This document shows, piece by piece, positions 11,337 through 30,244 of a DNA stretch of 64,000 nt. Positions within the stretch are counted from its first letter, which is position 1. The number at the start of each line of letters is the position of its first letter. The notes beneath the pieces were generated by a model that saw only the letters and a program-made list of their open reading frames with translations, did not search any database and was not told where the DNA came from. The DNA lies in NCBI GenBank assembly GCA_002783265.1, contig PFFG01000004.1:97598-161597 (forward strand), written 5' to 3'. Both the position numbers and the translations under genes were made by a program. The DNA is from Candidatus Gracilibacteria bacterium CG17_big_fil_post_rev_8_21_14_2_50_48_13 (lineage in GTDB: Bacteria; Patescibacteriota; Gracilibacteria; 1-14-2-50-48-13).

Positions 11337-12266
11337 CTAGCGTTTCGTTTGTCCCATATAGTCTTTCACGGCCTTACGTGTTGTCATCCAGTTCCTCCTC
11401 AGCTTTACCGCATCAATCTTGCCTTCCTTCGCGAGCTTGCTCAGATACGCCTGTGAGTACGACGTATGCTTGCCCGCCTCAGCGAGGGATATGAGTGCTT
11501 CCTTTTCTTTCGCAGGGAGCAGTGTATCAAGATAGATATTTATAGAGCGCAACACAGCTTGACCGATGAAATTCACCAGCGGCTTGTAGTCGCCTTTGTC
11601 TGCGGCCTGAAGCACGCGATAGTATTTTCTCCTGTCATTCTTCTGGATAATCACCAGTGGAAAACCGTACTGCATCAAGAAGATATTCATGACGAGCCTG
11701 CCTGTTCTGCCATTCCCATCCTCAAAGGGATGGATATTCACAAACATATGGTGGATCATCGCCGCAAACTCCACGACGTAGTGCAGCTTTTGATTCTTGC
11801 TCTGCCACAAGAGCAGCTCGCGCATGCGTAAAGGCACATCTAGAGCGCTTGGAGGGGTATGGTCTGAACCGCTGATAAATACATCGATATCTCTGTATCT
11901 GCCCGCCATGTTGGGATCAATGTCCTTAATAATCAGCTGGTGCAGCTGTTTTATCGTCTGCTCCGAAAAAGTATTTTTGCTGTCCTGCTCGATGATCTCA
12001 TACAGAAAATCCAGCGCCGCCTTATGGCTTTTGGTCTCGAGAATATCCTTTATGGGGCGTCCCTTGAGGGTCAGGCCCTCTTGAATGACCCAATAGGTCT
12101 CCTTGAGGGTGAGAGAGTTGCCCTCGATGGCGTTAGAGTTGTAGGTCATCTCCACCTCGAAGCGCTCGCGGAGCTTCTGCACCATGGTTTTAGAAAGCGG
12201 GCGTAACCGGTTGAGGGTTGTAAGCTTTTCTTCGAGGAGGTCGTGAAGGTTTTGGCGGAGGAGCAT
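11337..12266 (-). CDS. Fic family protein (AMP-transferase) with N-terminal inhibitory motif
   Basis: A 309-residue Fic protein. The active-site loop HPFEDGNGRTGR (residues 179-190) matches HPFx(D/E)GNGRxxR, with the catalytic His intact. Upstream, SNAIEG at residues 44-49 fits the inhibitory (S/T)xxxE(G/N) motif, so this is a class II Fic enzyme that blocks its own ATP-binding site until relieved. The C-terminal ~70 residues (LISLAEAGKHTSYSQAYLSK) look like a winged helix-turn-helix. Fic enzymes transfer AMP from ATP to Tyr/Ser/Thr of target proteins and often act as toxins or stress regulators. A perfect 10-bp inverted repeat sits just upstream of the start and could be the binding site for its own winged helix (inference). 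Confidence 0.93.
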   Translation of the reverse strand: MLLRQNLHDLLEEKLTTLNRLRPLSKTMVQKLRERFEVEMTYNSNAIEGNSLTLKETYWVIQEGLTLKGRPIKDILETKSHKAALDFLYEIIEQDSKNTFSEQTIKQLHQLIIKDIDPNMAGRYRDIDVFISGSDHTPPSALDVPLRMRELLLWQSKNQKLHYVVEFAAMIHHMFVNIHPFEDGNGRTGRLVMNIFLMQYGFPLVIIQKNDRRKYYRVLQAADKGDYKPLVNFIGQAVLRSINIYLDTLLPAKEKEALISLAEAGKHTSYSQAYLSKLAKEGKIDAVKLRRNWMTTRKAVKDYMGQTKR

Positions 12267-12275
12267 TATGAGGGT

Positions 12276-12310
12276 GGGTTGGATAAGGCTAATTTTATTC
12301 TATCCAACCC
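12276..12310. promoter_or_regulatory. operator-like inverted repeat upstream of the Fic gene
   Basis: GGGTTGGATA (12276-12285) and TATCCAACCC (12301-12310) are perfect complements separated by an AT-rich 15-base spacer. The left arm lies 10 bases upstream of the Fic start codon (12266, minus strand), so a bound protein would block transcription or initiation. Self-regulation by the Fic protein's C-terminal winged helix is possible but unproven. Confidence 0.55.
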
Positions 12311-12540
12311 ATGTGTTTATTTCAAGCCAAAACAGACCTATTGACGATTGGTTTAAGTTAAGTTCCATTCCAATTGGCTCAGCAGGTGGGTTCAGAAGCT
12401 CGTTTTCGGCAAGCCACCAGAGGGTTTGTATTTTAGGAATATAAGGGGAACGGGTCACCTTTGTATTTTCTGCAAATGAGACATTTGAGACAGTGTAAAA
12501 AAGGGTGTCTCAGAGGGGAGCGGGTCGGGGTTGACTTTCG
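12311..12540 (-). other. intergenic region with a start-less minus-strand frame
   Basis: Between the Fic gene and the repressor promoter no complete gene is seen. On the minus strand a frame is open for about 70 codons (roughly 12530 down to 12280) and reads KIQTLWWLAENELLNPPAEP before ending near the Fic operator. It has no good start codon and no recognised family, so it may be the tail of a lost gene. Confidence 0.3.
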
Positions 12541-12570
12541 TTTTGTTATAGACAGTAAAAGAGATTTTTT

Positions 12571-12626
12571 ATACGCAGTTGACTATTTTTATACGGTTCG
12601 TATAATTATGCCATAAATCGTATAAT
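12571..12626 (+). promoter_or_regulatory. promoter with symmetric four-half-site operator for the LexA-like gene
   Basis: A sigma-70-type promoter is clear: TTGACT (12579-12584), a 16-base spacer, TATAAT (12601-12606). Superimposed are two ATACG half-sites (12571, 12591) and two inverted CGTAT half-sites (12599, 12619). The central pair forms the palindrome ATACG-GTT-CGTAT overlapping the -10 box. The outer half-sites lie exactly 20 bases, two helical turns, from the inner ones on each side. The inner and outer left repeats extend to TTTTTATACG and the right ones to CGTATAAT. This fits cooperative binding of two repressor dimers and autoregulation of the repressor-CBASS transcription unit. 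Confidence 0.75.
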
Positions 12627-12643
12627 AGTTAGCAAGTACAGCA

Positions 12644-13255
12644 ATGAAGCCTCGTTTGAAAGAAGCCCTTATAGCAATACAAAGACATTTAAGAAAGTAT
12701 GGAACTTCTCCAAGTCTACGTGATTTACAAAAAACGATGGGGTATCAGTCCCCTCGTTCGGCCTTTTTATTAGTAAATACTCTTCTGGAAGAAGGTCTAA
12801 TCGAAAAGGATGATGAAGGTAATTACAAAATTGTAATTCCAGTAGAAGATAGTCAAGAAGTGGCAGAAACAATTAGTGTTCCCGTTCTTGGCTCCATTGC
12901 ATGCGGTAATCCTATATTTGCGGAAGAGAACGTTGTTGATAGTTATCCTGTGTCAAAGCGTCTACTCACGGGAAATCATTCCTACTTCTTTCTAAGAGCA
13001 GAAGGAGATTCTATGAACCAGAAAGGTATTGAAAGTGGAGATCTTGTTTTAGTTCGCCAGCAAAACTATGCCCAGAGTGGCGACATTGTTGTGGCCCTTA
13101 TTGATGAAAACGCGACTTTAAAAGAGTACCAGCAAAACACGGGTGCTATTATGCTTATCCCTCACTCAGATAATCCAGAGCATAAGCCTATCTTTGTAGA
13201 AGAGGGCTTTCTTGTACAGGGAGTCGTAGTACAAGTTTTTAAAAATATTTCTTAA
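12644..13255 (+). CDS. LexA-like self-cleaving repressor (S24 family) heading the CBASS operon
   Basis: A 203-residue protein with LexA architecture. The N-terminal winged helix (residues ~1-65, EALIAIQRHLRKYGTSPSLRDL then SPRSAFLLVNTLLEEGLI) resembles LexA. The C-terminal S24 peptidase domain has a predicted Cys87-Gly88 scissile bond (GSIACGNP), Ser123 in EGDSMNQKGI and Lys160 in ATLKEY. The Ser-Lys spacing of 37 equals that of E. coli LexA. It starts 38 bases after a -10 box covered by a symmetric operator, and ends 13 bases before the Cap4 gene on the same strand. It therefore most likely represses itself and the CBASS genes and is relieved by self-cleavage, as in the SOS response. Alternatively it is the genomic LexA and the proximity is coincidental; its operator differs from the repeats at umuDC. 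Confidence 0.88.
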   Translation: MKPRLKEALIAIQRHLRKYGTSPSLRDLQKTMGYQSPRSAFLLVNTLLEEGLIEKDDEGNYKIVIPVEDSQEVAETISVPVLGSIACGNPIFAEENVVDSYPVSKRLLTGNHSYFFLRAEGDSMNQKGIESGDLVLVRQQNYAQSGDIVVALIDENATLKEYQQNTGAIMLIPHSDNPEHKPIFVEEGFLVQGVVVQVFKNIS

Positions 13256-13268
13256 TAGACACAAAATT

Positions 13269-14804
13269 GTGGCATTAAACACTGTTGCAGCAAGAGTAAG
13301 TGGAGACATTTATCAGTGGATGTACTTTTGGTATAAGGTAGCTCCTCTTCTTGAGGAGCGTTCAAATGTTGAAAAAGTATGTTTCGAGTATGATGAAGCT
13401 GGAGTTGTTGACGATGTAGTGGTTTTCTACGGTGGGCCAGGAAAACATGATAATGGGAGCTTAATTAAGGCAGAGTATGCTCAGATTAAATATCATGTTG
13501 ATAATAGAGATACATATAGCTCAAAGGCTCTCATTGATCCAAAATTTTTAAGCAAAAAATCCACAGAATCACTACTAAAGCGTTTTCTAAACGCATACGA
13601 AGATCTTAAAAGTAAGGAGCACACGCCTTTTACTCTAAATCTAGTCTCTAACTGGCAGTGGGAACAAACTGACATCTTAGCACCACTTATCCGGAATACT
13701 ACTCTCTTGCCTGACGCATTTATTAGTGGCACTGTGACTGGAGCGTTAAAAAAACTTAGACAAGAATGGCAAACTCATCTTGGGATAAAAGAGGAACAAA
13801 AGTTTATCAACTTTTTGAAATGTCTCAGATTTGAAGTTAACTTTCTCGCTAACTTGCGATTCAAAGAGCTGGTTCATAAGACTCTTCAGACGGTTGGGTT
13901 GAGAGTACCAAATGCTGAACAACAGAATGATATATATGCCGGATTAACACAGCAGCTTTTGATAAACAAGAACTGCGAATTCGATGCAAACAATTTTCGC
14001 CAACTATGTACTATAGAAAAACTGTTTGCCCCTATCCAAGAAGCTAAGATCCCTATTCTAGCAGTTAGAAGCTTTTATAGAGCTGCAGAGAGCATTGAAC
14101 TTGAAGCAGATAGGTTTATCTGCGTTGACAGCCAGTTTCATGGGCGTCATCTCAAAGAGTCCTCAAACTGGACAGGAGTAGCAGGTCAAGTAAAAGATTA
14201 CTTTGCTCAGCCGCAAATACGACACGCGCTACGTCAACAAGAGCATGGGCTTTTATTGGAATGCCACGGGTCTTTAGCTCTTTTAACAGGGTATGAGTTA
14301 AGCTTCAATTCTGGGTGTACGGTTTACCCAATTCAAAAGCCTCAAAATGTTTTATGGAAGCCAGCAAACAAAAGTCCTGAAAGTAACTTATGGGTAAAGC
14401 ACGAGATCAATGCCTCTAGTAATAACGAAGAATGTGCAGTCGTATTATCCGTAACACATGATATTGCTGGAGACGTAGTAAACTATCTCGGCTTAGAAAA
14501 ACTTAGCATTGTTAATCTTATTCCAACTTCAGGATTTGGACATGGTGCAGTTTCAGATGGAACTCATGCCTATAAGATGGCCGAAGAATTAAGTCGTATT
14601 TTAAAATCATTACGACCAGGGCCAACTACTAAAATTCACCTGTTTGTTAGTGCTCCGAATTCTTTACTATTTTTTCTGGGACAGTTTCGAGAGGCGCTAG
14701 GACCTTTAGCTCTATACGAGTTCGACTTTTCGAATGAGAAGTCCTCTTCTTACGAACCTAGCTTTGAGTTAAATATCCCATTTACATCGTCATCAACAAT
14801 TTAA
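13269..14804 (+). CDS. cap4: CBASS effector: Cap4-like nuclease (DUF4297-type) with SAVED domain
   Basis: A 511-residue two-domain protein beginning with GTG. The N-terminal domain (to ~residue 210) has the layout of the DUF4297/PD-(D/E)XK nuclease: GDIYQWMYFWYKVAPLL, then FEYDEAGVVDDVVVFYGG (Glu40, Asp48/49) and AEYAQIKYHVD with the Q-x-K motif at 72-74. The C-terminal ~250 residues show a SAVED sensor pattern: IDxxxx-type strands, VVLSVTHDIAGDVVNYL, and the terminal KIHLFVSAPNSLLFFLGQF and LALYEFDF. In this family a cyclic oligonucleotide bound to SAVED activates DNA degradation and kills the infected cell. It is followed at once by the CD-NTase gene (TAATG overlap). Family assignment is by pattern; the nuclease subtype is less certain than SAVED. 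Confidence 0.85.
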   Translation: MALNTVAARVSGDIYQWMYFWYKVAPLLEERSNVEKVCFEYDEAGVVDDVVVFYGGPGKHDNGSLIKAEYAQIKYHVDNRDTYSSKALIDPKFLSKKSTESLLKRFLNAYEDLKSKEHTPFTLNLVSNWQWEQTDILAPLIRNTTLLPDAFISGTVTGALKKLRQEWQTHLGIKEEQKFINFLKCLRFEVNFLANLRFKELVHKTLQTVGLRVPNAEQQNDIYAGLTQQLLINKNCEFDANNFRQLCTIEKLFAPIQEAKIPILAVRSFYRAAESIELEADRFICVDSQFHGRHLKESSNWTGVAGQVKDYFAQPQIRHALRQQEHGLLLECHGSLALLTGYELSFNSGCTVYPIQKPQNVLWKPANKSPESNLWVKHEINASSNNEECAVVLSVTHDIAGDVVNYLGLEKLSIVNLIPTSGFGHGAVSDGTHAYKMAEELSRILKSLRPGPTTKIHLFVSAPNSLLFFLGQFREALGPLALYEFDFSNEKSSSYEPSFELNIPFTSSSTI

Positions 14805-15934
14805 TGATACTATCTAGTGATTTTAAAACATTTCTAAGTAAAATTCGCCTTACCCCTACTCAAAAAGAAGAGCTTAAGAATGGACATACGCTTTTACGCA
14901 GTCGTCTGAATTCATTTGAAGAACTACAGGATATCTTTGTTAGTGACTTTCTTCAGGGTAGTTATCGTCGTCATACTGCAGTACGTCCAAAAAATGGGAA
15001 ACGTTCTGATGTGGATATTATTGTAGTAACGAAGCTTCACGAATCTGAGTACTCTCCAGAGGAAGCAATGAATGTTTTCACCCCGTTTTTAGATAAATAC
15101 TATGAAGGAAAGTATGAAAGACAAGGACGTTCAATAGGTATTGCCCTCTCGGCTGTAGAATTTGATCTAGTACTTACTTCTGCCCCTTCGGCAAGTGAGC
15201 TAGAAATTTTAAAATCAGCTGCTGTTACAACTGAAGATACAATAGAGGAAGCATTTGACTGGAAACTGCATCCTGCATGGTTAGCCATGGGAAGCCGCGA
15301 AGCAAATCAGTTTACAGAGCAACGGTTGAATCAAGCCTCATCTGAGCAGGAGTGGAAAACTAATCCGCTACGGATCCCAAATTGTGAAGCACAATGTTGG
15401 AAAGATACTCATCCTCTTGAACAAATTAAGTGGACACGAGACAAAAATCAGATAACAAGTGGCCACTTTATTAATGTCGTAAAAGCAATAAAATGGTGGA
15501 GATTAACCAATTACGATGAGCCAAAGCATCCTAAGGGATTTCCTCTAGAGCGTATTGTAGGAGACTGTTGCCCAGACGATATCGACTCTGTTGCAGATGG
15601 AGTTGTTCGTACACTAGAGACCATTGTTTCAAAGTATAAGGATCTTGTGGATCGAAAAGAAAAACCAACTCTCCCTGATTATGGAGTTCCAGATCACGAT
15701 GTACTGGCGCGTATGGACGCAGAGGATTTTTGTAAGTTTTATGAACAGTCAAAGGAAGCAGCACTACTAGCACGGCACGCATTTGATTCGACTGATAGGG
15801 TTGAAAGTGGAAAGTTGTGGCAACAATTACTAGGAAAAGAGTTTCCAGACCCTCCTGAGAACGGAGGAAATAAATCAGCTGGATATACTAATCCTATAGC
15901 ACCGGCGAGCCCAGATTCTGGTCGCTTCGCATAA
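14804..15934 (+). CDS. CBASS cyclic oligonucleotide synthase (CD-NTase)
   Basis: A 376-residue nucleotidyltransferase. The signature is LQGSYRRHTAV (GS at 52-53) followed by SDVDIIVV (Asp69, Asp71), with the third catalytic Asp in VEFDLVL (Asp121), all in the spacing of cGAS/DncV-like enzymes. A helical C-terminal domain follows (HFINVVKAIKWWRL). The last ~25 residues are Gly/Pro/Ser-rich and end in Ala, suiting a flexible tail that Cap2 could conjugate. It makes a cyclic di- or trinucleotide when phage is sensed; the exact product cannot be read from sequence, but pairing with a SAVED effector favours a cyclic trinucleotide. Its start codon overlaps the stop of the effector gene by one base. 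Confidence 0.93.
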   Translation: MILSSDFKTFLSKIRLTPTQKEELKNGHTLLRSRLNSFEELQDIFVSDFLQGSYRRHTAVRPKNGKRSDVDIIVVTKLHESEYSPEEAMNVFTPFLDKYYEGKYERQGRSIGIALSAVEFDLVLTSAPSASELEILKSAAVTTEDTIEEAFDWKLHPAWLAMGSREANQFTEQRLNQASSEQEWKTNPLRIPNCEAQCWKDTHPLEQIKWTRDKNQITSGHFINVVKAIKWWRLTNYDEPKHPKGFPLERIVGDCCPDDIDSVADGVVRTLETIVSKYKDLVDRKEKPTLPDYGVPDHDVLARMDAEDFCKFYEQSKEAALLARHAFDSTDRVESGKLWQQLLGKEFPDPPENGGNKSAGYTNPIAPASPDSGRFA

Positions 15935-15935
15935 T

Positions 15936-17753
15936 ATGGATATCAGCTCTTTACCTTTCTCAATTATTACTGGTCTTAGGACACTTAATGATATTCCAGG
16001 ATTAACAATCACTGGCACAGCTCAAGAACTATCTGACGAGTGGGTAATCCCTTTTTCACTTGAAATAAAAAAGAGCGAAGAAGAGTTAATCCCTCTAAAA
16101 ACTCAATGGAATGTACATATTTCAAAAGACTATCCTCTTGGGAAGATAGAGATCTATCCATCAATGAAAGGTGGAATAACAGCTACATTTCAGCATCAAA
16201 CTCTAAATCTTATTGGCATTGAAGGGCCTTCAAGATCTGGTAAGTTATGTCTGGATAGTCCGAGTGAGTCATTAAATTCATTGACTGTTTCTTCTGATCC
16301 AGTAGGTATTAGCGAAGAGCGATTAAACTGGCATATCCAAAGAACTATTAGTTGGCTGAATGCAGCTGCTTCAAAAAGTTTAGCTGTAGAAAATGATCCT
16401 TTTGAATTACCGTATTATCCTCATCGAGCTGGCATAAAAGTTGTCCATATTGAAAGTGATGATACTTTCCCAATATGGTCTACTAGATTAACTGGGGATA
16501 TCGGTACGGTACAGTTGTGTGCCCTATCTGGAATACCAGAAACTTTCCATGCCAATGGATTCTTTGATCAAGGCGATGATCTACTTTATACTTCTCAGCG
16601 CTTTTTGGGTGACTTTCTAAGCAAGGACACAGAAACTTTTATGGGAGTTTGGTGGTTTTGGAAAGAGCCTCCCATTGTTGTCCCTTGGAAACCACTATTA
16701 ACGTGGGGAGAGCTTCGACAACTTGCAAAGAACCAAGGTTTAGATTGTGTTAAAAAAGTGGAAGAGATTCAAGAGCTTCTAAGGCATCAGAAGCGTAAAG
16801 TTCTTTTGATTGGTTATCCAATACCACATAAAATAGGTCATCTACCTGTAGAGGTACACTGGGAAGCAATGGAGTTCCCAATGCCCTTAGCCACTGCGAA
16901 AATACCAAATGGATTTCGTGATAACGAGATTGGCCGCAAAGAGCGTGACAAACGCACTATATTTGCAGACTCTGCTAAGCTGTATTACTTACAAACAGAG
17001 AACTGGCATCCTAAACGCATGCAGGCAAGAGGCCGACTAGAAGACTCTCTACAAAATCAGAAGGTTGCTCTTATCGGATGTGGAGCCTTAGGAGCTAGTA
17101 TAGCAGAACTATTGATTAGAGGTGGCGTAAAAAACTTACTGCTAATTGATCCTGATGTGCTTGAAGCAGGAAATTTAGTTCGTCATACTTTAACAAGTGC
17201 TGATATTGGCATTAAAAAAGTTGATGCATTAGGGCGTAGACTCAAAACTATCTCTCCTTTTTGTCAGATTACTACCCATCCTGAGAACCTACCAACAAAT
17301 ATAAATCAGGTAGAAGAGCTGCTCAAAAACTGTACACTTATTCTTGATTGTACAGGGTCGAATACAGTCATATATACTCTCGATCAGAGTAAATGGAGTA
17401 TCCCTAAATTATTTGTGTCTTTATCTGTAGGTTATAAAGCCAGGCGCTCTTTTCTCTTTATGCATAAGGGCTTTTCCCTTCCAGCAGAAGAGTTTCACGA
17501 AAAAACTCATGAAATTCTTCAAGAAGAAAGAAAACTTAGTACTCAAGATGAAGCAGTGTTTCAGGGTGCAGGTTGTTGGTCGCCTCTATTTCCTGCGCGA
17601 TTTGATGATATTATATTGGCAGCAAGTACAGGGCTTAAAACTATTGAGAGTTGTATTTCACTAAAAAGAGCACCGAAATCAGAGCTCACTGTCTACGAGC
17701 AGCTTTATGATGAATCTGGCATTTTTTCTGGTATAACCCAAAAAGTTATATGA
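15936..17753 (+). CDS. cap2: CBASS Cap2: E2-E1 ubiquitin-transfer-like protein
   Basis: A 605-residue fusion. The N-terminal E2-like domain has GPSRSGKLCLDSP with the candidate catalytic Cys105. A linker region (~180-370) follows. The C-terminal E1/ThiF adenylation domain starts with KVALIGCGALGASIAELL (~376-393), LLIDPDVLEAGNLVRH and a late Cys in GAGCWSP (Cys547), at nearly the same position as the E1 cysteine of characterised Cap2. Known role: Cap2 adenylates the C terminus of the CD-NTase and attaches it to targets, priming cyclic nucleotide synthesis. All key residues appear present. It starts one base after the CD-NTase stop, and its stop overlaps the cap3 start (ATGA), indicating translational coupling. 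Confidence 0.93.
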   Translation: MDISSLPFSIITGLRTLNDIPGLTITGTAQELSDEWVIPFSLEIKKSEEELIPLKTQWNVHISKDYPLGKIEIYPSMKGGITATFQHQTLNLIGIEGPSRSGKLCLDSPSESLNSLTVSSDPVGISEERLNWHIQRTISWLNAAASKSLAVENDPFELPYYPHRAGIKVVHIESDDTFPIWSTRLTGDIGTVQLCALSGIPETFHANGFFDQGDDLLYTSQRFLGDFLSKDTETFMGVWWFWKEPPIVVPWKPLLTWGELRQLAKNQGLDCVKKVEEIQELLRHQKRKVLLIGYPIPHKIGHLPVEVHWEAMEFPMPLATAKIPNGFRDNEIGRKERDKRTIFADSAKLYYLQTENWHPKRMQARGRLEDSLQNQKVALIGCGALGASIAELLIRGGVKNLLLIDPDVLEAGNLVRHTLTSADIGIKKVDALGRRLKTISPFCQITTHPENLPTNINQVEELLKNCTLILDCTGSNTVIYTLDQSKWSIPKLFVSLSVGYKARRSFLFMHKGFSLPAEEFHEKTHEILQEERKLSTQDEAVFQGAGCWSPLFPARFDDIILAASTGLKTIESCISLKRAPKSELTVYEQLYDESGIFSGITQKVI

Positions 17754-18238
17754 CACCAAATGATTTGTATATTACTGAAGATGGTAGTTATGGTATATGC
17801 ATTACAAATGCTGCGTGGAATCAAATCGCAGAAGCATGCTTAAAAAGTAAGGAAAAAGAGACGGGAGGAGTGTTGATCGGATCTTACTCCGCTGATCAAT
17901 CTTATGCTGTCATCTCTGAGGTATATATGCCGACTAATTCTAAAAGCGGTAGATTCTGGTTTAATCGTGGCAAATCTGGGCTGAAAAAGTATCTTAAAGA
18001 GTGTTGGAATAGTATTCCCAGAAAGTACTATCTAGGTGAGTGGCACTATCATCCAGTTTTTGAAGTTGAACCAAGTAGTCAAGACTTAGAACAGATGAAA
18101 GTGGTCAGCAATAACTCTCGTTATGCATGTAATACTCCAATAATGCTCATTGCAGGCAAGTCGTCTTCAAAAAACATGCCACTAAAAGGATGGGTTTTCC
18201 CCAAAGGAAAGGTAATAGAATTTAAAGAGTTATTTTAA
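17750..18238 (+). CDS. cap3: CBASS Cap3: JAMM/MPN deconjugating peptidase
   Basis: A 162-residue JAB/MPN metalloprotease. Glu37 in EKETGGVLIGSY and the zinc motif H99-x-H101-x10-D112 (EWHYHPVFEVEPSSQD) complete the JAMM signature. Cap3 removes Cap2-linked CD-NTase conjugates and so tunes CBASS activation. It overlaps cap2 by four bases (ATGA) and is the last gene of the operon; its stop overlaps the stop of the convergent zinc-ribbon gene by four bases. Its presence with a fused E1/E2 Cap2 marks this as a type II (long-form) CBASS. Confidence 0.93.
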   Translation: MTPNDLYITEDGSYGICITNAAWNQIAEACLKSKEKETGGVLIGSYSADQSYAVISEVYMPTNSKSGRFWFNRGKSGLKKYLKECWNSIPRKYYLGEWHYHPVFEVEPSSQDLEQMKVVSNNSRYACNTPIMLIAGKSSSKNMPLKGWVFPKGKVIEFKELF

Positions 18239-19398
18239 AAGAAAATCTTCTCCCCTCTACCGTTCACCATAGAAGGCCTCTTCAATGACTCAGGGACAGG
18301 CTTATTCTCCAGTCCTCGCTTCTTAACCAACTCCAATAACTCAGGAGTACTATCTGTTCCACTTAGTTTACCTTTCAATACGCCCATTTTATATGAGAGG
18401 CTAGTTGGAAGAATCCTCCAATTCGTATAAAGCAAAGCCTCTTCCACAGTTTTCTTAAACTCTCTTTTACTAAAAGATGCGCTTCGGCTTTCATTGGAAT
18501 CCTGAACACGAAATTTCACGACGACATCACCTCTTATCTCATCAGCATCATCAAACTTTAAAGTAGTGAATCCAACTTTTTGCAAAGCTTTTGCTAATTT
18601 TTTCTGCAATTTGGCAACCGTTGGACGTTCCAAGTGCTCTACAATATACTCAGGAGTTCCTTCCTGGTTTTTAGGATCAGATTTAATGCCTTCAACTACG
18701 TTTTTCAATTCGTCGATACGTCTAAGAGAGGCTAGATACTCCATACCTTCTTCATGGTTGAGACAGAACCTTGCCCTGTCCTGTTCAAAGTTGCGATCAA
18801 TCTTTTCTTTAAGTCGATAGTTTTTGATAACAAGAGGCTTAGAGCTCACCCAAGTACATTTAGGACAGGAATCCTGATACGTGGTGTTCTTTTTGTTTTC
18901 CGTAACTGTACACTTTACTTTCGTACTGCATTCAGGACAGCGTCTTGGAGTAAAGACTTTTTCATCTCCAAACTCTGTGATACGCATTCCATAGTCACAT
19001 CCCTTACACCAGAAAAAACACTCCACATAATTCCTCTTACCCTTTTCATATGTGACATGCAGAAACTTATCCGTAAGCTTCATATCTTTTGAGCAGTTTT
19101 TGCATCGTCTCTTTATGTTCACACGATCGTAGTGTGCGTCGAGATCTCTATCCTCTTGCATCCACTTTTCAATAGTTTTTGATTTATTCCTGTTCCTATC
19201 TCCTTTCCAAAAATACATGTAAAAGTTGACTAAACCGCTGTGTCGCGTGTCGACATTGCAGGTAACATACATGTTCTTTTTTGTACCTATGACCTCAGGC
19301 TCGTTCCAGATTTTTTCCAAGCGACGACCTTCCTCTACGGTAAAACGATCATAGAGATCCTCGTAGTGACTTTTTTCTTTGAGATGACGATATTCCAT
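18235..19398 (-). CDS. hypothetical zinc-ribbon protein next to CBASS
   Basis: A 387-residue protein of unknown family. Four CxxC pairs at residues 99-102 (CKNC), 131-134 (CKGC), 154-157 (CPEC) and 178-181 (CPKC) indicate two tandem zinc ribbons. The first 95 residues are charged and include KIWNEPEVIGTKKNMYVTC and VNFYMYFWKGDRNR. After ~200 there are helical, Lys-rich stretches. It has no signal peptide or membrane helix. Zinc ribbons of this kind usually bind nucleic acid. Its gene ends inside the last bases of cap3 and is divergent from an unknown gene at 19506. A short inverted repeat (AGAGAT/ATCTCT, 19406-19423) lies just upstream of its start. Its position within the defence island suggests a related role, but nothing direct shows it. 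Confidence 0.7.
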   Translation of the reverse strand: MEYRHLKEKSHYEDLYDRFTVEEGRRLEKIWNEPEVIGTKKNMYVTCNVDTRHSGLVNFYMYFWKGDRNRNKSKTIEKWMQEDRDLDAHYDRVNIKRRCKNCSKDMKLTDKFLHVTYEKGKRNYVECFFWCKGCDYGMRITEFGDEKVFTPRRCPECSTKVKCTVTENKKNTTYQDSCPKCTWVSSKPLVIKNYRLKEKIDRNFEQDRARFCLNHEEGMEYLASLRRIDELKNVVEGIKSDPKNQEGTPEYIVEHLERPTVAKLQKKLAKALQKVGFTTLKFDDADEIRGDVVVKFRVQDSNESRSASFSKREFKKTVEEALLYTNWRILPTSLSYKMGVLKGKLSGTDSTPELLELVKKRGLENKPVPESLKRPSMVNGRGEKIFF

Positions 19399-20346: not shown

Positions 20347-21612
20347 ATGAAAAACTTTTCAGTCCATTCTATCCCAATTCAGGACCTTCGTCCATACGAA
20401 GAGAATCCTCGGAAATGGGATAGTACTTCGGAGACACACCTCCGACAAAGCATCGAGCGCTTTGGGCTCGTCGATCCGATCATCGTGAATAACCACCATG
20501 ATCGGAAAAACATTATTGTTGGCGGACATTTTCGCTGGCATATTGCCAAGCAACTGGGCTTCAAAGAAGTGCCTGTTGTCTACGTGCATCTTGATCCTGA
20601 AAAGGAGAAGGAGCTTAACCTCCGTCTTAATCGCAACACAGGAGAATGGGATCTTGATTTACTGAAATCTTTCGATACTAATCTGCTCCTTGAGTTCGGT
20701 TTTTCTGAGACAGACCTTTCTTCCATCTGGGATGATGTGCTCACCACGGAAGATGATGATTTTCAGACTAGCAAGAAGCTGGAAGATTTAAAAGAGCCGA
20801 CAGTGCGGTTGGGGGAAATGTATCAACTTGGCAACCACAGACTTCTTTGTGGGGACTCTACTCTGCCTGAAAATATCCAGCGTCTTGTGGGAGATGCGAG
20901 AATACAGATGTTGTACTGCGACCCTGTGTACAATATTGATCTTTCCTACGACAAAGGTGTTGGTGGAAAGAAGAAGTATGGTGGAAAAGCAAAGGATGCA
21001 CGTTCTCAGGAGGAGTATCGAGCTTTTCTGAAAGCAACGATAGAGAATGCTCTGAGTGTTTCGGAAGAAAACACTCATGTCTTTTACTGGTGTGATCAGA
21101 ACTACGTTGGAATGGTACAGGGCTTGTACGAAGAGCTTGGGCTTACCAATCGCAGAGTATGCCTCTGGATAAAGAATTCAGCAAACCCGACTCCGCAGAT
21201 AGCATTCAGTAAATGTTATGAGCCATGCGTGTACGCAACTCGAGGGAAGCCCTATCTGAATACCGAAGCCACGAAGTTTACGGAGATTATGAATAAGGAT
21301 ATCGATGCTGGAAACCGCAGTATCGACGACATTCTTGATTATCTGGATCTCTGGTTGGTCAAAAGGCTTTCGACGTCTACCTATGCTCATCCCACAGAGA
21401 AGCCTGTGACATTACATGAAAAGGCGCTCAGACGGTGTACCCGTATTGGAGACAACGTCCTGGAACTCTTTGGTGGTAGTGGGAGCACGCTCATTGCCTG
21501 TGAACAACTCAAACGGAACTGCTTCATCATGGAGCTGGACCCTATTTTTGCATCCTTAATCATTCAACGCTATGAAGAACTTACCGGAATCAAAGCAGTC
21601 CTCCTTGCCTAA
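20347..21612 (+). CDS. ParB-domain DNA methyltransferase (phage type)
   Basis: A 421-residue fusion. Residues 1-~100 are a ParB/Srx-like N-terminal domain (IQDLRPYEENPRKWD, then IIVGGHFRWHIAKQLGF, with GGHxR replacing GERR). From ~155 follows an adenine/cytosine-N4 methyltransferase in the beta order: RLGEMYQLGNHRLLCGDST, motif IV LYCDPVYNID, target-recognition region, HPTEKPVTLHEKAL, then the SAM-binding ELFGGSGSTLIACEQ. Motif IV reads DPVY instead of the usual DPPY. ParB-methyltransferase fusions are typical of phage and integrated elements, often beside terminase genes, as here. It overlaps the next methyltransferase by 41 bases. Confidence 0.9.
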   Translation: MKNFSVHSIPIQDLRPYEENPRKWDSTSETHLRQSIERFGLVDPIIVNNHHDRKNIIVGGHFRWHIAKQLGFKEVPVVYVHLDPEKEKELNLRLNRNTGEWDLDLLKSFDTNLLLEFGFSETDLSSIWDDVLTTEDDDFQTSKKLEDLKEPTVRLGEMYQLGNHRLLCGDSTLPENIQRLVGDARIQMLYCDPVYNIDLSYDKGVGGKKKYGGKAKDARSQEEYRAFLKATIENALSVSEENTHVFYWCDQNYVGMVQGLYEELGLTNRRVCLWIKNSANPTPQIAFSKCYEPCVYATRGKPYLNTEATKFTEIMNKDIDAGNRSIDDILDYLDLWLVKRLSTSTYAHPTEKPVTLHEKALRRCTRIGDNVLELFGGSGSTLIACEQLKRNCFIMELDPIFASLIIQRYEELTGIKAVLLA

Positions 21613-22345
21613 GGAGGGTGACCTGTTTCAGCTGGGAGAGCATTTCCTCCTTTGTGGAGATGCTACTAATCCCGATCATGTGAGAGCCCTTATGAGGGAG
21701 AATACGATTGACCTGATATGTTCGGACATGCCGTACGGGATTGCGTATGTGGAGAGTAAGGAAGGGCTGGTTGGCAATATGACACATAAGAAGATTGCCA
21801 ACGACCAGCTCCAGAGTGATGCAGACTATATTGCATTCTCTCAGGGCTGGCTAAATGCTATACGACCACATCTCTCGGCAAAAAATGCATACTATATCTT
21901 TAATGCAGACCTGAAACTCTTCGCTTTACGTGAGGCATTAGCTGTAAGCAGGTTTCATTTCTCACAGCTCCTAATCTGGGTAAAGACGCAGGCTGTTGTG
22001 GGCAGGCTGGATTACTTTCCTCAGCATGAGCTCATACTTTATGGCTGGTACAAACGGCACCGTTTTCTGAAGGCGAAGGACAAGTCTGTGCTGACTTGTC
22101 CCAAACCGTCGAAGAGCAAACTTCATCCAACGATGAAGCCAATATCTCTCCTTCGCAGGCTGATCCTCAATAGCACTGCACTTGGGGATACGGTATATGA
22201 CGGATTTCTTGGTAGTGGATCAACGCTCATAGCCTGCGAACATACAGGAAGGCGGTGCTTTGGCATTGAGAAAGATCCCGAGTACTGCCAGGTCATACTG
22301 GATCGGTGGTCCAAACTTACAGGTCGTAACCCTGTAAAGCTATGA
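21572..22345 (+). CDS. DNA methyltransferase, second of tandem pair
   Basis: A 257-residue methyltransferase without a ParB domain: GDLFQLGEHFLLCGDATNP, motif IV LICSDMPYGIAY (DMPY in place of DPPY), KLHPTMKPISLLRRL, and DGFLGSGSTLIACEHTGR, again in beta-class order. It modifies DNA adenine-N6 or cytosine-N4; the recognition site cannot be told. The start at 21572 overlaps the 3' end of the first methyltransferase, and its stop overlaps the next start by four bases (ATGA), so all three genes are probably translated from one message. The tandem resembles the C-terminal half of its neighbour, consistent with duplication inside a phage. Confidence 0.88.
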   Translation: MKNLPESKQSSLPKEGDLFQLGEHFLLCGDATNPDHVRALMRENTIDLICSDMPYGIAYVESKEGLVGNMTHKKIANDQLQSDADYIAFSQGWLNAIRPHLSAKNAYYIFNADLKLFALREALAVSRFHFSQLLIWVKTQAVVGRLDYFPQHELILYGWYKRHRFLKAKDKSVLTCPKPSKSKLHPTMKPISLLRRLILNSTALGDTVYDGFLGSGSTLIACEHTGRRCFGIEKDPEYCQVILDRWSKLTGRNPVKL

Positions 22346-23004
22346 AACCATCATCCATTCAAGACAGACAGGAGGAGCAGAAAAAGCTCCTCCTCGAACA
22401 ACTCCAAAAAACTCCCATCGTCCAGATAGCCTGCGAAAAGTCAGGTGTTGGACGGGCCACTTACTATCGTTGGCGTAACGAAGATCCCGACTTTGCGAAA
22501 GAAGCAGATACTGCACTTAAGGAGGGGCGTTCACTGGTGAATGATATGGCAGAGTCTCAATTAATGTCAGCTATCCGTGACAAGAATATGACCGCCATCA
22601 TTTACTGGCTGAAACATCATCACGAGAGCTATACGACGAGAGTGGAGATCTCAGGCTCCTTAAAAACTGAGCATGTTCTCATTTCATTCTCATTATCATT
22701 TAATGGCACGCTGTACTCAAAGACTCCATTGTTGTTGAAAGCAACTTCCTCGTCATTAATGGTAAGACTGATATCGCAATTACACTCTGCAATGACCGAC
22801 CCAGTAAAGCTCAAAGTCTTCTCAGTTGAGAAATTCTTTGGGAAACTGATTTCCAGTTTCGGATATACTGTCTTGAAGTGTTCAGAGAGAAGAGGATTTG
22901 CTATAAGAAGAGCCATAATACCTACGACTAAAACGCCTAGAGCAATAAAAAGAGGTTTTCTGGGCAAAGTCTGCAAGTTCATAATCTACTGTGCTAAAGA
23001 ATAA
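22342..23004 (+). CDS. terminase small-subunit-like HTH protein with foreign 3' end
   Basis: The first ~110 residues are a phage HTH protein of the small terminase type (phBC6A51-like): RQEEQKKLLLEQLQKTPIVQ, VGRATYYRWRNEDPDFAKE, VNDMAESQLMSAIRDKNMTA and IYWLKHHHESYTTRVEISG. After about 22665 the family pattern ends and the frame continues to 23004 through sequence antisense to a truncated membrane-protein gene (22629-22982). The C-terminal ~110 residues (FSLSFNGTLYSKTPLLLKAT, etc.) look like random antisense translation. I conclude that a phage cassette was joined here by illegitimate recombination and lost its downstream part, including any large terminase. The protein itself may still be made. 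Confidence 0.65.
   Translation: MKPSSIQDRQEEQKKLLLEQLQKTPIVQIACEKSGVGRATYYRWRNEDPDFAKEADTALKEGRSLVNDMAESQLMSAIRDKNMTAIIYWLKHHHESYTTRVEISGSLKTEHVLISFSLSFNGTLYSKTPLLLKATSSSLMVRLISQLHSAMTDPVKLKVFSVEKFFGKLISSFGYTVLKCSERRGFAIRRAIIPTTKTPRAIKRGFLGKVCKFIIYCAKE
22629..22982 (-). pseudogene. truncated membrane-anchored protein with Ig-like (glucodextranase-B-type) domain
   Basis: It reads as an N-terminal membrane helix (LFIALGVLVVGIMALLIANP) followed by an exported beta domain, LSFTGSVIAECNCDISLTIN then NNNGVFEYSVPLNDNENEM. This is the pattern 'tGxvxxxaxVxINgxxvxxxxxGxFxxxVxLxxGxN' of small Ig-like domains. The expected continuation after the Asn-Glu stretch is missing; the frame runs into RTCSVFKEPEISTLVV, antisense to the terminase-like gene. 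The gene was therefore cut at about 22665-22690 by the incoming cassette. The start at 22982 is a good ATG before the helix. The domain assignment is from pattern only. Confidence 0.6.
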
Positions 23005-23287
23005 GTATTCTCCGGCAGATACTCCAAAAAGGAACACTCCTCCGCCGGGTGCAACGTACCATTAACAGTAGGTCTAAGCCTTGCTATCAAGATACTCCCG
23101 AAGAGAAGTGCTCCTCAGTTGACTTGATAGCGACCGAATTGTGCATAGATACTATGCTGGCTTGAGGTCAGAGACCTGTTACAAAATAATGGTACGTTGC
23201 CCTCGTACTATAGCATTATTCTTGGTAGATGCGAAGCTGATTTTTTGTTATAGTGCTTCTAAGTCTTTATTGGTAAATTTTACAGCA
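22983..23287. other. intergenic region upstream of the HEPN gene
   Basis: No gene is seen in these 305 bases. They hold the start region of the truncated minus-strand gene and the upstream copy of a diverged repeat (23111-23215). About 35 bases before the HEPN start there is a likely extended -10 box (TGTTATAGT, 23247-23255). Confidence 0.5.
23111..23215 (+). repeat. diverged direct repeat, upstream copy
   Basis: Two blocks match the copy at 24576-24654: 23111-23128 (15 of 18 bases) and 23188-23215 (22 of 28 bases). Similarity continues into TGCGAAG (23230-23236) and the -10 region. The copies bracket the HEPN gene and each precedes a plus-strand gene, so this looks like a duplicated regulatory region. 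Confidence 0.55.
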
Positions 23288-24553
23288 ATGAACGAAAAGC
23301 AAGACCCAATTATAGGGACATGGTGGATATCAGATAAGCCAGAAAATAAGGTTCCAGGGAGTTTGGAAGTTGATGAGAAAAAACTGACCCTACTTGGAGC
23401 CTTTAACAGCTTTCCAAGTAGTGCCCTGATGGTATCAATTCTGGAAACTCCAGTTAAGGAGAATATGATAGTTGGAATTTCATCTAAAGGAGAATACTTC
23501 TCTCTCGAGTATTACAAAACACCCGCGCATACACAGTTGGCTTTTTCACGATCATTATCGCACAACGAAACTTATTCAATTTATAGAATTATAAAAGGAG
23601 GTCATTTTGATAATATAGATGAGCTCTCTTTTGATCATATCCGTGTAGAATTGCCTCATTTATTCCAGTGGTTTTCAAAAAGTGCTGTTAAAAGTGAAAT
23701 TTTATCAAAAGAAGAAAAGGGATTAGATACAATTTCAATTACATGTGATCTTAATAACCCCGAAAGAACAGTTCTGTATAGCGATGAACTAATTGAAGTG
23801 TCCTACAATATTGACCTGACGGTTCCAACTCTTCCACTGGATGATCTCCATATTTCTCAGAAAGGTATAGTAAAAATAGAATCAAAAATAAAGTCTATGC
23901 AGTTAGACTCCCTTTTATCAATTTTAAATAGCCTGATTAGGTTTTTACAAATAGGAATAGGTCAAAAATTGAAGCCTATAAAGATAACTGCACATATTGA
24001 TAAGAATAATGTTCAGGTACTATTGCCACCAAATCTGATTACGATAAAGAAACGATCTATACATGATATGATGTTTAGCTTTAGCGAAGTTGAGGGGTCA
24101 ATACAGGATATATTGCATAAGGTCATTAATTACAATCATGACTATGCTGATATCCTAAATCTTTACTCTGGATTAATAGAAGACAGTACTAAGAATATTC
24201 ACAATAGATTTAAAGATGCAGTAAGTTTTATTGAAGGCTTTGTTAAACAGAAATCTGGAGATAAAACCCTAGAGCAGGTATTCAAACTTTTTAATAAAGA
24301 ATATACAAATAGCAAAGGAGATACACTCTTACCAGCAGCAGATGTAAAAAAAATCATAGTCACTAGAGACAGATTGACCCACTTTTTTATGCATGAAAAA
24401 AAGTTAAAGCATGTTGTAGATGAAGAGTGCATTATTATTTACACAGACAAGTTGATCTTCTTAATAGAATTTGCCTTACTAAAAGATCTGGGACTTCACG
24501 ATGATCTTCTCGAAAAGTTTTATGAGAAACGTTCCAAAAGTGTACTATATTAA
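23288..24553 (+). CDS. ApeA-like HEPN-domain anti-phage protein
   Basis: A 421-residue protein. The N-terminal ~130 residues match the ApeA_NTD1 style: PIIGTWWISDKPENKVPGSL then KLTLLGAFNS. A middle region carries long beta stretches. The C-terminal ~150 residues are a helical HEPN-like domain with VTRDRLTHFFMH, giving R-x4-H (the family usually shows RNYLTHY), followed by IIIYTDKLIFLIEFALLKDLGL, the usual last helix. HEPN RNases of this kind cleave host RNA on phage infection and cause abortive infection. The start at 23288 (MNEKQDP) is chosen because the frame upstream to 23141 encodes nothing like the family. It is flanked by diverged repeats. The Arg-His pair is intact, so it is probably active. 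Confidence 0.75.
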   Translation: MNEKQDPIIGTWWISDKPENKVPGSLEVDEKKLTLLGAFNSFPSSALMVSILETPVKENMIVGISSKGEYFSLEYYKTPAHTQLAFSRSLSHNETYSIYRIIKGGHFDNIDELSFDHIRVELPHLFQWFSKSAVKSEILSKEEKGLDTISITCDLNNPERTVLYSDELIEVSYNIDLTVPTLPLDDLHISQKGIVKIESKIKSMQLDSLLSILNSLIRFLQIGIGQKLKPIKITAHIDKNNVQVLLPPNLITIKKRSIHDMMFSFSEVEGSIQDILHKVINYNHDYADILNLYSGLIEDSTKNIHNRFKDAVSFIEGFVKQKSGDKTLEQVFKLFNKEYTNSKGDTLLPAADVKKIIVTRDRLTHFFMHEKKLKHVVDEECIIIYTDKLIFLIEFALLKDLGLHDDLLEKFYEKRSKSVLY

Positions 24554-28515: not shown

Positions 28516-28571
28516 TTGCATAGGTGAACACAGTATCACCTATAATCAGAATGTCCTTACACTCTGATTAT
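28516..28571 (+). promoter_or_regulatory. umuDC promoter with two nested inverted repeats
   Basis: TTGCAT (28516) and TATAAT (28541) are possible promoter boxes with a long, 19-base spacer. The first repeat, ATAGGTGA (28520-28527) and TCACCTAT (28536-28543) around 8 bases, lies between and onto the boxes, as an SOS operator would. The second repeat, ATAATCAGA (28542-28550) and TCTGATTAT (28563-28571) around 12 bases, runs from the -10 box to the umuD ATG (28570). Confidence 0.65.
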
Positions 28572-28971
28572 GCAACGCTATGTACCCACCTGTCCTTTGG
28601 TCCTGCCCACCGTCTCCTGTGGCTTCCCGAGCCCTGCCGAAGATACGCAAGAGGCGGCGCTTAACCTCCATTCCTACGCAGTTGCGAACCCTGCAGCGAC
28701 GTTTTTTGTCCGCGCCACCGGTCAGTCCATGGCAGGAGCGGGCCTTCTGGCTGGGGACATCCTGGTCGTGGATCGTTCGCGGGAGCCGCACACGGGTAAC
28801 ATCGTGGTCGCCCTTGTTGATGGGGAATTCCTTGTGAAACGCTATGTGGAGCGTAGTGGGCAGACTCTGCTGGAGCCCTGTCATCCGGCCTATCCCACCC
28901 TCCGCATCGATAATCGTGAGGATGTCAGCATTTGGGGAGTCGTAACCTTTGCCCTGCATGAGTACGCCTGA
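28570..28971 (+). CDS. umuD: UmuD-like translesion-polymerase subunit (S24 peptidase)
   Basis: A 133-residue protein of UmuD size without a DNA-binding domain. The scissile bond is Cys17-Gly18 (VSCGFPSPAED), the nucleophile Ser53 in GQSMAGAGL and the general base Lys90 in FLVKRYV, with Ser-Lys spacing of 37. On DNA damage, RecA filaments would trigger self-cleavage, and the trimmed dimer activates UmuC. It overlaps umuC by 14 bases (28958-28971). Promoter and operator are directly upstream. Confidence 0.93.
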   Translation: MQRYVPTCPLVLPTVSCGFPSPAEDTQEAALNLHSYAVANPAATFFVRATGQSMAGAGLLAGDILVVDRSREPHTGNIVVALVDGEFLVKRYVERSGQTLLEPCHPAYPTLRIDNREDVSIWGVVTFALHEYA

Positions 28972-30244
28972 TACCTTTGCCCTCGTCGACTGCAACAATT
29001 TTTTTGTTTCCTGCGAGCGCCTCTTTCAGCCTGAACTGCGAGGGAAGCCTGTTGTAGTCCTTTCCAATAATGATGGGTGCATTGTGTCGCGTTCTGGGGA
29101 AGCTAAAAAACTGGGTATTCCCATGGGAGGGGCATTCTATAAAGTGCGCGATATTGTGGCTCGGCACGGTGTGTGTTGGCGGTCGTCGAACTTTTCTCTG
29201 TATGGCGATCTTTCTCAGCGGGTAATGCGTATTTTGCAGAGTTTTGCGCGAGACGTGGAAGTCTACTCTGTGGATGAGGCGTTTCTTGCTTTCCCTTTCG
29301 TTCGGGAGGATATTGAGGATGTGGGGCGTCTTTTGACGCGTCAGGTGGAGATGTGGACGGGTATTCCTGTCAGCATAGGCTTTGCACCCAATAAAACTTT
29401 GGCGAAAATTGCGACGGATAGGGCAAAAAAACATCCGGCGGCGGGAGGTGTTTGCTCTTTGGTGCATGCGTCAGAAGAGCAGCGGAATGCAGTGCTCGCT
29501 GAGGTTCCCGTGGGGGATGTATGGGGTATTGGGCGCCGTATGGGGCCTTTTCTGATGCAGCAAGGTATTCAGACGGCCTACGATTTAAAACACGCTCCCG
29601 AGTGGCTGGTGCGCAAACATCTGACGGTGCAGGGCGCACGTCTGGTGCGGGAACTTCGAGGCGATGTGTGTTTTCCTCTGGCACGAACAGTGCCGAAAAA
29701 GACCATTGCCTCAACCCGGAGTTTTCGCCGGTATATCACGGACAAAAGGGAACTGGCGGAGGCTATTGCGACCTATGTGGGGCGGGCGGCCCGGCGTCTT
29801 CGCGGGCAGTCGTCCTATGCATCCCTGGTGACGGTGTACATTCGTACCAACCCCTTCAGTACCCGTTACCCGCAATATCATAAGTCAGCAACGGTGGCTG
29901 TCCCCGTGCCAACAGCCTCCACCCCGCGCCTCCTGACGTCGGCGCTCGCCGCTCTCGATACCATCTTCGCACCGGGATTCCACTATCAAAAGGCGGGAGT
30001 AATCTTCTCGGGTCTTTTGCCCATGCACGTATGGCAGCGCACCCTCTGGGGGGAAGGGGAGGCGGAGCAAGAGCAGGATGACGCCCTCATGCGGGCGTTG
30101 GACAGTATGAACAAGAAGTGGGGCGATGGCACGGTGTTTGTTGCACGGCAGGGGGTGCAGCAACCCTGGTCTATGCGGCAGGATCACAAGTCGCGCCGCT
30201 ATACTACTTCATGGCAAGAGCTCCTACACGTCAAGATATCCTAG
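28958..30244 (+). CDS. umuC: UmuC-like Y-family DNA polymerase
   Basis: A 428-residue Y-family polymerase: FALVDCNNFFVSCERLFQPEL with the first catalytic Asp, VVVLSNNDGCIVSRSGEAK, YSVDEAFLAF with the second acidic pair, and GIPVSIGFAPNKTLAKIATD. The C-terminal little-finger domain has RSFRRYITDKRELAEAI and the umuC-type ending (MRQDHKSRRYTTSWQELLHV). It inserts nucleotides opposite lesions with UmuD'. The start is placed at 28958 (MSTPDTFAL); an ATG nine bases earlier is possible. It overlaps umuD, so is translationally coupled. Confidence 0.95.
   Translation: MSTPDTFALVDCNNFFVSCERLFQPELRGKPVVVLSNNDGCIVSRSGEAKKLGIPMGGAFYKVRDIVARHGVCWRSSNFSLYGDLSQRVMRILQSFARDVEVYSVDEAFLAFPFVREDIEDVGRLLTRQVEMWTGIPVSIGFAPNKTLAKIATDRAKKHPAAGGVCSLVHASEEQRNAVLAEVPVGDVWGIGRRMGPFLMQQGIQTAYDLKHAPEWLVRKHLTVQGARLVRELRGDVCFPLARTVPKKTIASTRSFRRYITDKRELAEAIATYVGRAARRLRGQSSYASLVTVYIRTNPFSTRYPQYHKSATVAVPVPTASTPRLLTSALAALDTIFAPGFHYQKAGVIFSGLLPMHVWQRTLWGEGEAEQEQDDALMRALDSMNKKWGDGTVFVARQGVQQPWSMRQDHKSRRYTTSWQELLHVKIS

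Follow-up and report, generated by a model that had tools for sequence, protein, structure and literature searches.

How potentially suicidal immune operons stay off is an active question, and it is raised here by a short array of repeats just upstream of a repressor gene in the window, by which is meant the whole 64,000-nucleotide stretch of DNA that was analysed. What would bind such an array, and what would be controlled by it? We consider it likely that the array serves as the operator through which a dedicated LexA-type repressor, first in a type II CBASS operon, regulates its own expression, and that damage-induced self-cleavage of this repressor would derepress the operon. The features concerned, in order of position, are the following.

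12569..12575, forward strand: left outer half-site TTATACG, exact match
12579..12584, forward strand: -35 box TTGACT (promoter match 11/12 together with the -10 box)
12589..12605, no strand assigned: central 7-N3-7 palindrome TTATACG GTT CGTATAA, a box of the LexA clade
12601..12606, forward strand: -10 box TATAAT, mostly under the central palindrome
12619..12625, forward strand: right outer half-site CGTATAA, exact match
12644..13255, forward strand: LexA-type repressor of 203 aa, predicted to be self-cleaving (Cys-Gly site, GDSM serine, TLK lysine; from Pfam, alignment and PDB matches)
13269..14804, forward strand: SAVED effector, predicted PD-(D/E)XK nuclease (Cap4-like)
14804..15934, forward strand: CD-NTase (oligonucleotide cyclase)
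15936..17753, forward strand: E1-E2 protein (Cap2-like)
17750..18238, forward strand: JAB peptidase (Cap3-like)

The array spans 12569-12625 and is composed of exact 7-mers in the order TTATACG N13 TTATACG N3 CGTATAA N13 CGTATAA, with TTATACG starting at 12569 and 12589 and CGTATAA at 12599 and 12619. The original prediction had described four mirror-symmetric 5-mers, two copies of ATACG (12571, 12591) and two of CGTAT (12599, 12619); these are exact, with no other copies of the two between 12001 and 13300, and the symmetry is borne out about an axis at 12597, the half-sites being longer than claimed. The 20-bp spacing between outer and inner half-sites is likewise exact, but the "exactly two helical turns" read from it is approximate, as it amounts to ~1.9 turns at 10.5 bp per turn. 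The array had also been placed around the -10 box, most of which is indeed covered by the central palindrome, but off-centre, with the palindrome also spanning the end of the spacer. The promoter itself, TTGACT-16-TATAAT (12579-12606), is the sole promoter-like site on the forward strand in 12240-12700. Its -35 box sits between the two left half-sites, the outer of which lies just upstream of it, and the right outer half-site falls near the expected transcription start.

Each 7-mer has one further copy in the 64 kb (forward strand), and the pattern ATACG-N10-18-ATACG-N1-5-CGTAT is matched in the window by the array alone, once per strand, against an expectation of 0.00 from shuffles. Given the central palindrome, first-order simulations of the local sequence put the chance of a mirrored pair of 5-mers within 40 bp at P = 1.1e-4 and yielded a mirrored outer 7-mer pair in 0 of 200,000 runs, values which serve as a guide and not as a formal P because the pattern was picked after being seen. 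The original prediction had also proposed a search for the same array elsewhere in the genome; the core TATACG-N3-CGTATA proved to be single copy in 1.28 Mb, and at up to 3 mismatches it had 27 matches compared with 94 for a reversed control pattern, per strand. A wider regulon was considered in five approximate matches, three with 2 mismatches and two with 3 mismatches and the full ATACG-N3-CGTAT core, four of which are inside ORFs whilst the fifth, at C1:156714, is upstream of an HU-like gene. As four of the five are intragenic and matches are fewer than for the control, no further regulon member is claimed; boxes at several repair genes, as would mark a global SOS regulator, were not found for this repressor, its core being unique in the genome. 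A similar 35-bp pattern on viral contig L121 was rejected, belonging to a longer inverted-repeat stretch where no LexA gene was found.

The protein encoded at 12644-13255 scores 98.3 bits with PF00717 (Peptidase_S24), far above the cut-off, and 24.5 bits with PF01726 (LexA_DNA_bind), barely above the cut-off of 23.7; these are its only Pfam domains, with no WYL domain among them. The Cys-Gly cleavage site and the Ser/Lys dyad are present in an alignment with E. coli LexA, and PDB sequence matches are to LexA first and then UmuD, those to LexA structures being near full length. Judged by its sequence, the protein is a member of the LexA family. The host has RecA and a second full-length LexA, on contig C1. 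The promoters of the latter and of a umuDC-like operon (window 28570-30244) carry GTGTAAATATTATCAC and GGTGAACACAGTATCACC, unlike TTATACG, and ATAGGTGA-N8-TCACCTAT upstream of umuDC probably represents the kind of SOS box that the host's main LexA recognises. As these promoter motifs differ, the two LexA-type repressors apparently use different boxes, and the host's own LexA is disfavoured as a binder of the array.

Closer counterparts come from elsewhere in the class. At E <= 1e-35, a search of 353 genomes of the class gave 20 matches in 19 genomes besides the host, in two families (f6 and f22), with 40-49% identity between the repressor and its recA-linked relatives and with recA next downstream in 19 of the 20. 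In a tree the repressor groups with this recA-linked clade (support 89/96), on a long branch whose exact place is unsure, whilst the host's own LexA joins further LexAs from the class (100/99). In all 12 f6 promoters the -10 box is overlain by an inverted repeat with the 7-N3-7 geometry of the central palindrome; TTGAC lies ~10-11 bp before the repeat, and a third half-site, TGTATGC, follows 10 bp further on in direct orientation. The central palindrome is thus the counterpart of the f6 box, as it shares both the geometry over the -10 box and the position relative to TTGAC. The promoters of f22, a family in which TGA is decoded as an amino acid, differ in having direct TGTATAC-like repeats. 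This recoding of TGA, taken with the small size of the genomes, points to Patescibacteria. Motifs of the direct-repeat type are mentioned in a published review on LexA binding motifs, where a study on Patescibacteria is cited. When the 64 kb were scanned with the motif of the recA-linked LexAs the array site ranked only 4th, which together with the 40-49% identity suggests that specificity has shifted somewhat. A second LexA copy of ~47% identity was seen in the TGA-recoded genome G494 (L074:7824-8435), where it heads a PLD-helicase and type IIG-like restriction locus and not recA. Work on the LexA network of Patescibacteria was reportedly done by Sanchez-Osuna et al. in 2017.

The repressor is the first gene of its operon, and the CBASS genes follow directly 3' with gaps of at most 13 bp or short overlaps. 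With CD-NTase, effector, E1-E2 and JAB genes within one operon, this is a type II CBASS, whose antiviral role we infer from the gene content. G+C from ~7 to 26 kb is mostly 0.34-0.47, lower than the 0.52-0.55 beyond 26 kb. The operon seems to lie within a larger defence island: window 20347-24553 encodes two N6/N4 DNA methylases, an ApeA-like HEPN protein and an HTH_Tnp_1_2-like protein, the last with homologues in L107 and L108. At 18235-19398 the reverse strand carries an uncharacterised gene, Cys-rich and zinc-ribbon-like, for which Pfam gives no match; its relatives (L074:5151-6191, L107:9761-10876, L108:5036-6112 and L114:3359-4459; 25-30% identity, E 1e-22 to 1e-42) form a family that recurs at CD-NTase/defence loci.

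The association of such repressors with CD-NTases extends beyond this genome. Of 380 genomes of the phylum, 26 have SMODS CD-NTases, and 21 loci were compared with the window excluded, 19 from the SMODS search plus L072 and L073, the unit counted being CD-NTase loci, not each an established full CBASS. An S24/LexA-like gene lies within ~2 kb in eight of the 21 (L072, L108, L109, L111, L113, L114, L116 and L117), where 0.19 would be expected from the S24 counts of those genomes (P ~5e-12, or ~4e-10 with seven instead of eight, L072 having been first noticed partly via its own S24 gene). Pfam confirms the seven genes from L108 to L117, and that of L072 was identified by HMM and a genome search with PF00717. 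The (A/C)G site, Ser and Lys are kept in all eight proteins; a LexA-type DNA-binding half was not shown by Pfam in L108, L113 and L072. At seven plasmid CBASS loci whose SAVED effectors are distantly related there was no annotated LexA/S24 neighbour, the neighbours being XRE, HTH plus ImmA/IrrE or unannotated genes. L109:5680-7389 encodes a fusion of a LexA-type repressor with a D12-class DNA adenine methyltransferase, divergent from the CD-NTase locus and with a TCGAAA-TTG-TTTCGA palindrome in its promoter.

These observations are consistent with a simple switch. A repressor dimer on 12589-12605 would block the -10 box of the only strong forward promoter. Each outer half-site is 20 bp off, on roughly the same face of the helix, and probably binds a single protomer of a dimer next to it, so tightening repression; of all the steps this one is the least certain. 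RecA-ssDNA filaments formed upon phage attack or other DNA damage would set off self-cleavage of the repressor at Cys-Gly, the repressor and CBASS genes would be derepressed together, and newly made repressor would reset the switch. The effector, being a predicted DNA-cutting enzyme, could by its own activity prolong induction of the operon.

It is plausible, and we lean slightly towards the view, that the outer half-sites are cooperative contacts for the repressor. The partner halves that would complete outer dimer sites (12579-12585 and 12609-12615) are degenerate, so the array comprises one full site and two half-sites, and it is best read as a putative LexA-type operator plus two additional half-sites in phase with it. 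The same degeneracy would be expected if only the central palindrome worked, the outer half-sites then being either remnants of no effect or a side effect of an AT-rich promoter and its TATAAT-like strings. Half-sites at +/-20 bp were also not seen in the relatives' promoters, so the case for their function is their symmetry; however, four identical 7-mers in exact mirror arrangement, never reproduced in the simulations, speak against this reading, and the relatives too have one extra half-site, albeit at +10 bp. We thus regard a single working site as a real but lesser possibility.

The manner of release and the type of switch can be weighed in the same way. Direct contact with ssDNA is made by two other CBASS controllers, CapW and CapP (PMC13373217), and the LexA-like IrvR of Streptococcus mutans is reported not to follow the RecA rule (PMC7101444), which would fit release by direct ssDNA or ligand sensing; however, homology to recA-linked LexAs, the retention of all cleavage residues and the RecA of the host make this unlikely. 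The original prediction had likened the array to a phage CI switch rather than to a single SOS box, and an S24 repressor with a symmetric multi-site operator does invite a bistable reading, in which there would be two promoters and dimers would bind in alternative registers. However, the DNA-binding domain is that of LexA and not CI/XRE, the box matches those of the recA-linked LexAs, no opposing promoter-like site was found overlapping the array, no Cro-like antagonist gene was seen beside it and the downstream genes are CBASS and not phage genes. A protein scan returned two distant spirochaete LexAs from genome contigs and no relative from viral contigs. The CI-like switch is therefore very improbable; what stands of the prediction is that the array is a putative operator of the 12644-13255 protein, with plausible contacts for more than one dimer.

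The interest of the finding lies in the link between the repressor and CBASS and in the recurrence of that link. On balance we favour the view that CBASS has one more recurrent family of controllers in this small-genome phylum (probably Patescibacteria), namely self-cleaving LexA-type repressors, forming SOS-like branches whose own operators would couple RecA activation to defence, and that the extra in-phase half-sites here keep a DNA-cutting effector tightly off. If true, CBASS would be joined directly to the SOS system through a self-cleaving LexA-type controller that recurs at CD-NTase loci. The genome studied here holds two LexAs with apparently different boxes, and the compact promoter makes testing in a laboratory host easy.

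The published controllers found to link CBASS to DNA damage in this literature are CapW/BrxR, CapH with CapP and CapK with CapS (PMC13373217, PMC9122588), which answer damage via proteins unrelated to a LexA-type repressor; no paper on LexA control of CBASS or CD-NTases was found in the open-licence literature, mostly judged by title or abstract. Here too an immune-operon repressor sits near the promoter and a response to DNA damage is expected. However, the protein is unrelated to theirs, has neither a WYL domain nor a protease or kinase partner and is predicted to cleave itself; the genes that follow it are the CBASS core, with no ImmA/IrrE protease or STAS/kinase pair. With phage CI it shares the class of S24 self-cleavage domain and several operator contacts, but it differs in its LexA DNA-binding domain, the lack of an opposing promoter and the single full palindrome. 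Another close parallel is the autorepression of SOS LexA, with which it shares the LexA domains, the cleavage residues and a palindrome over the repressor's own promoter, and its recA-linked LexA relatives have the same box geometry; in contrast to both, the repressor described here is linked to CBASS and not to recA, is a second LexA in its genome and has half-sites 20 bp to either side of its box.
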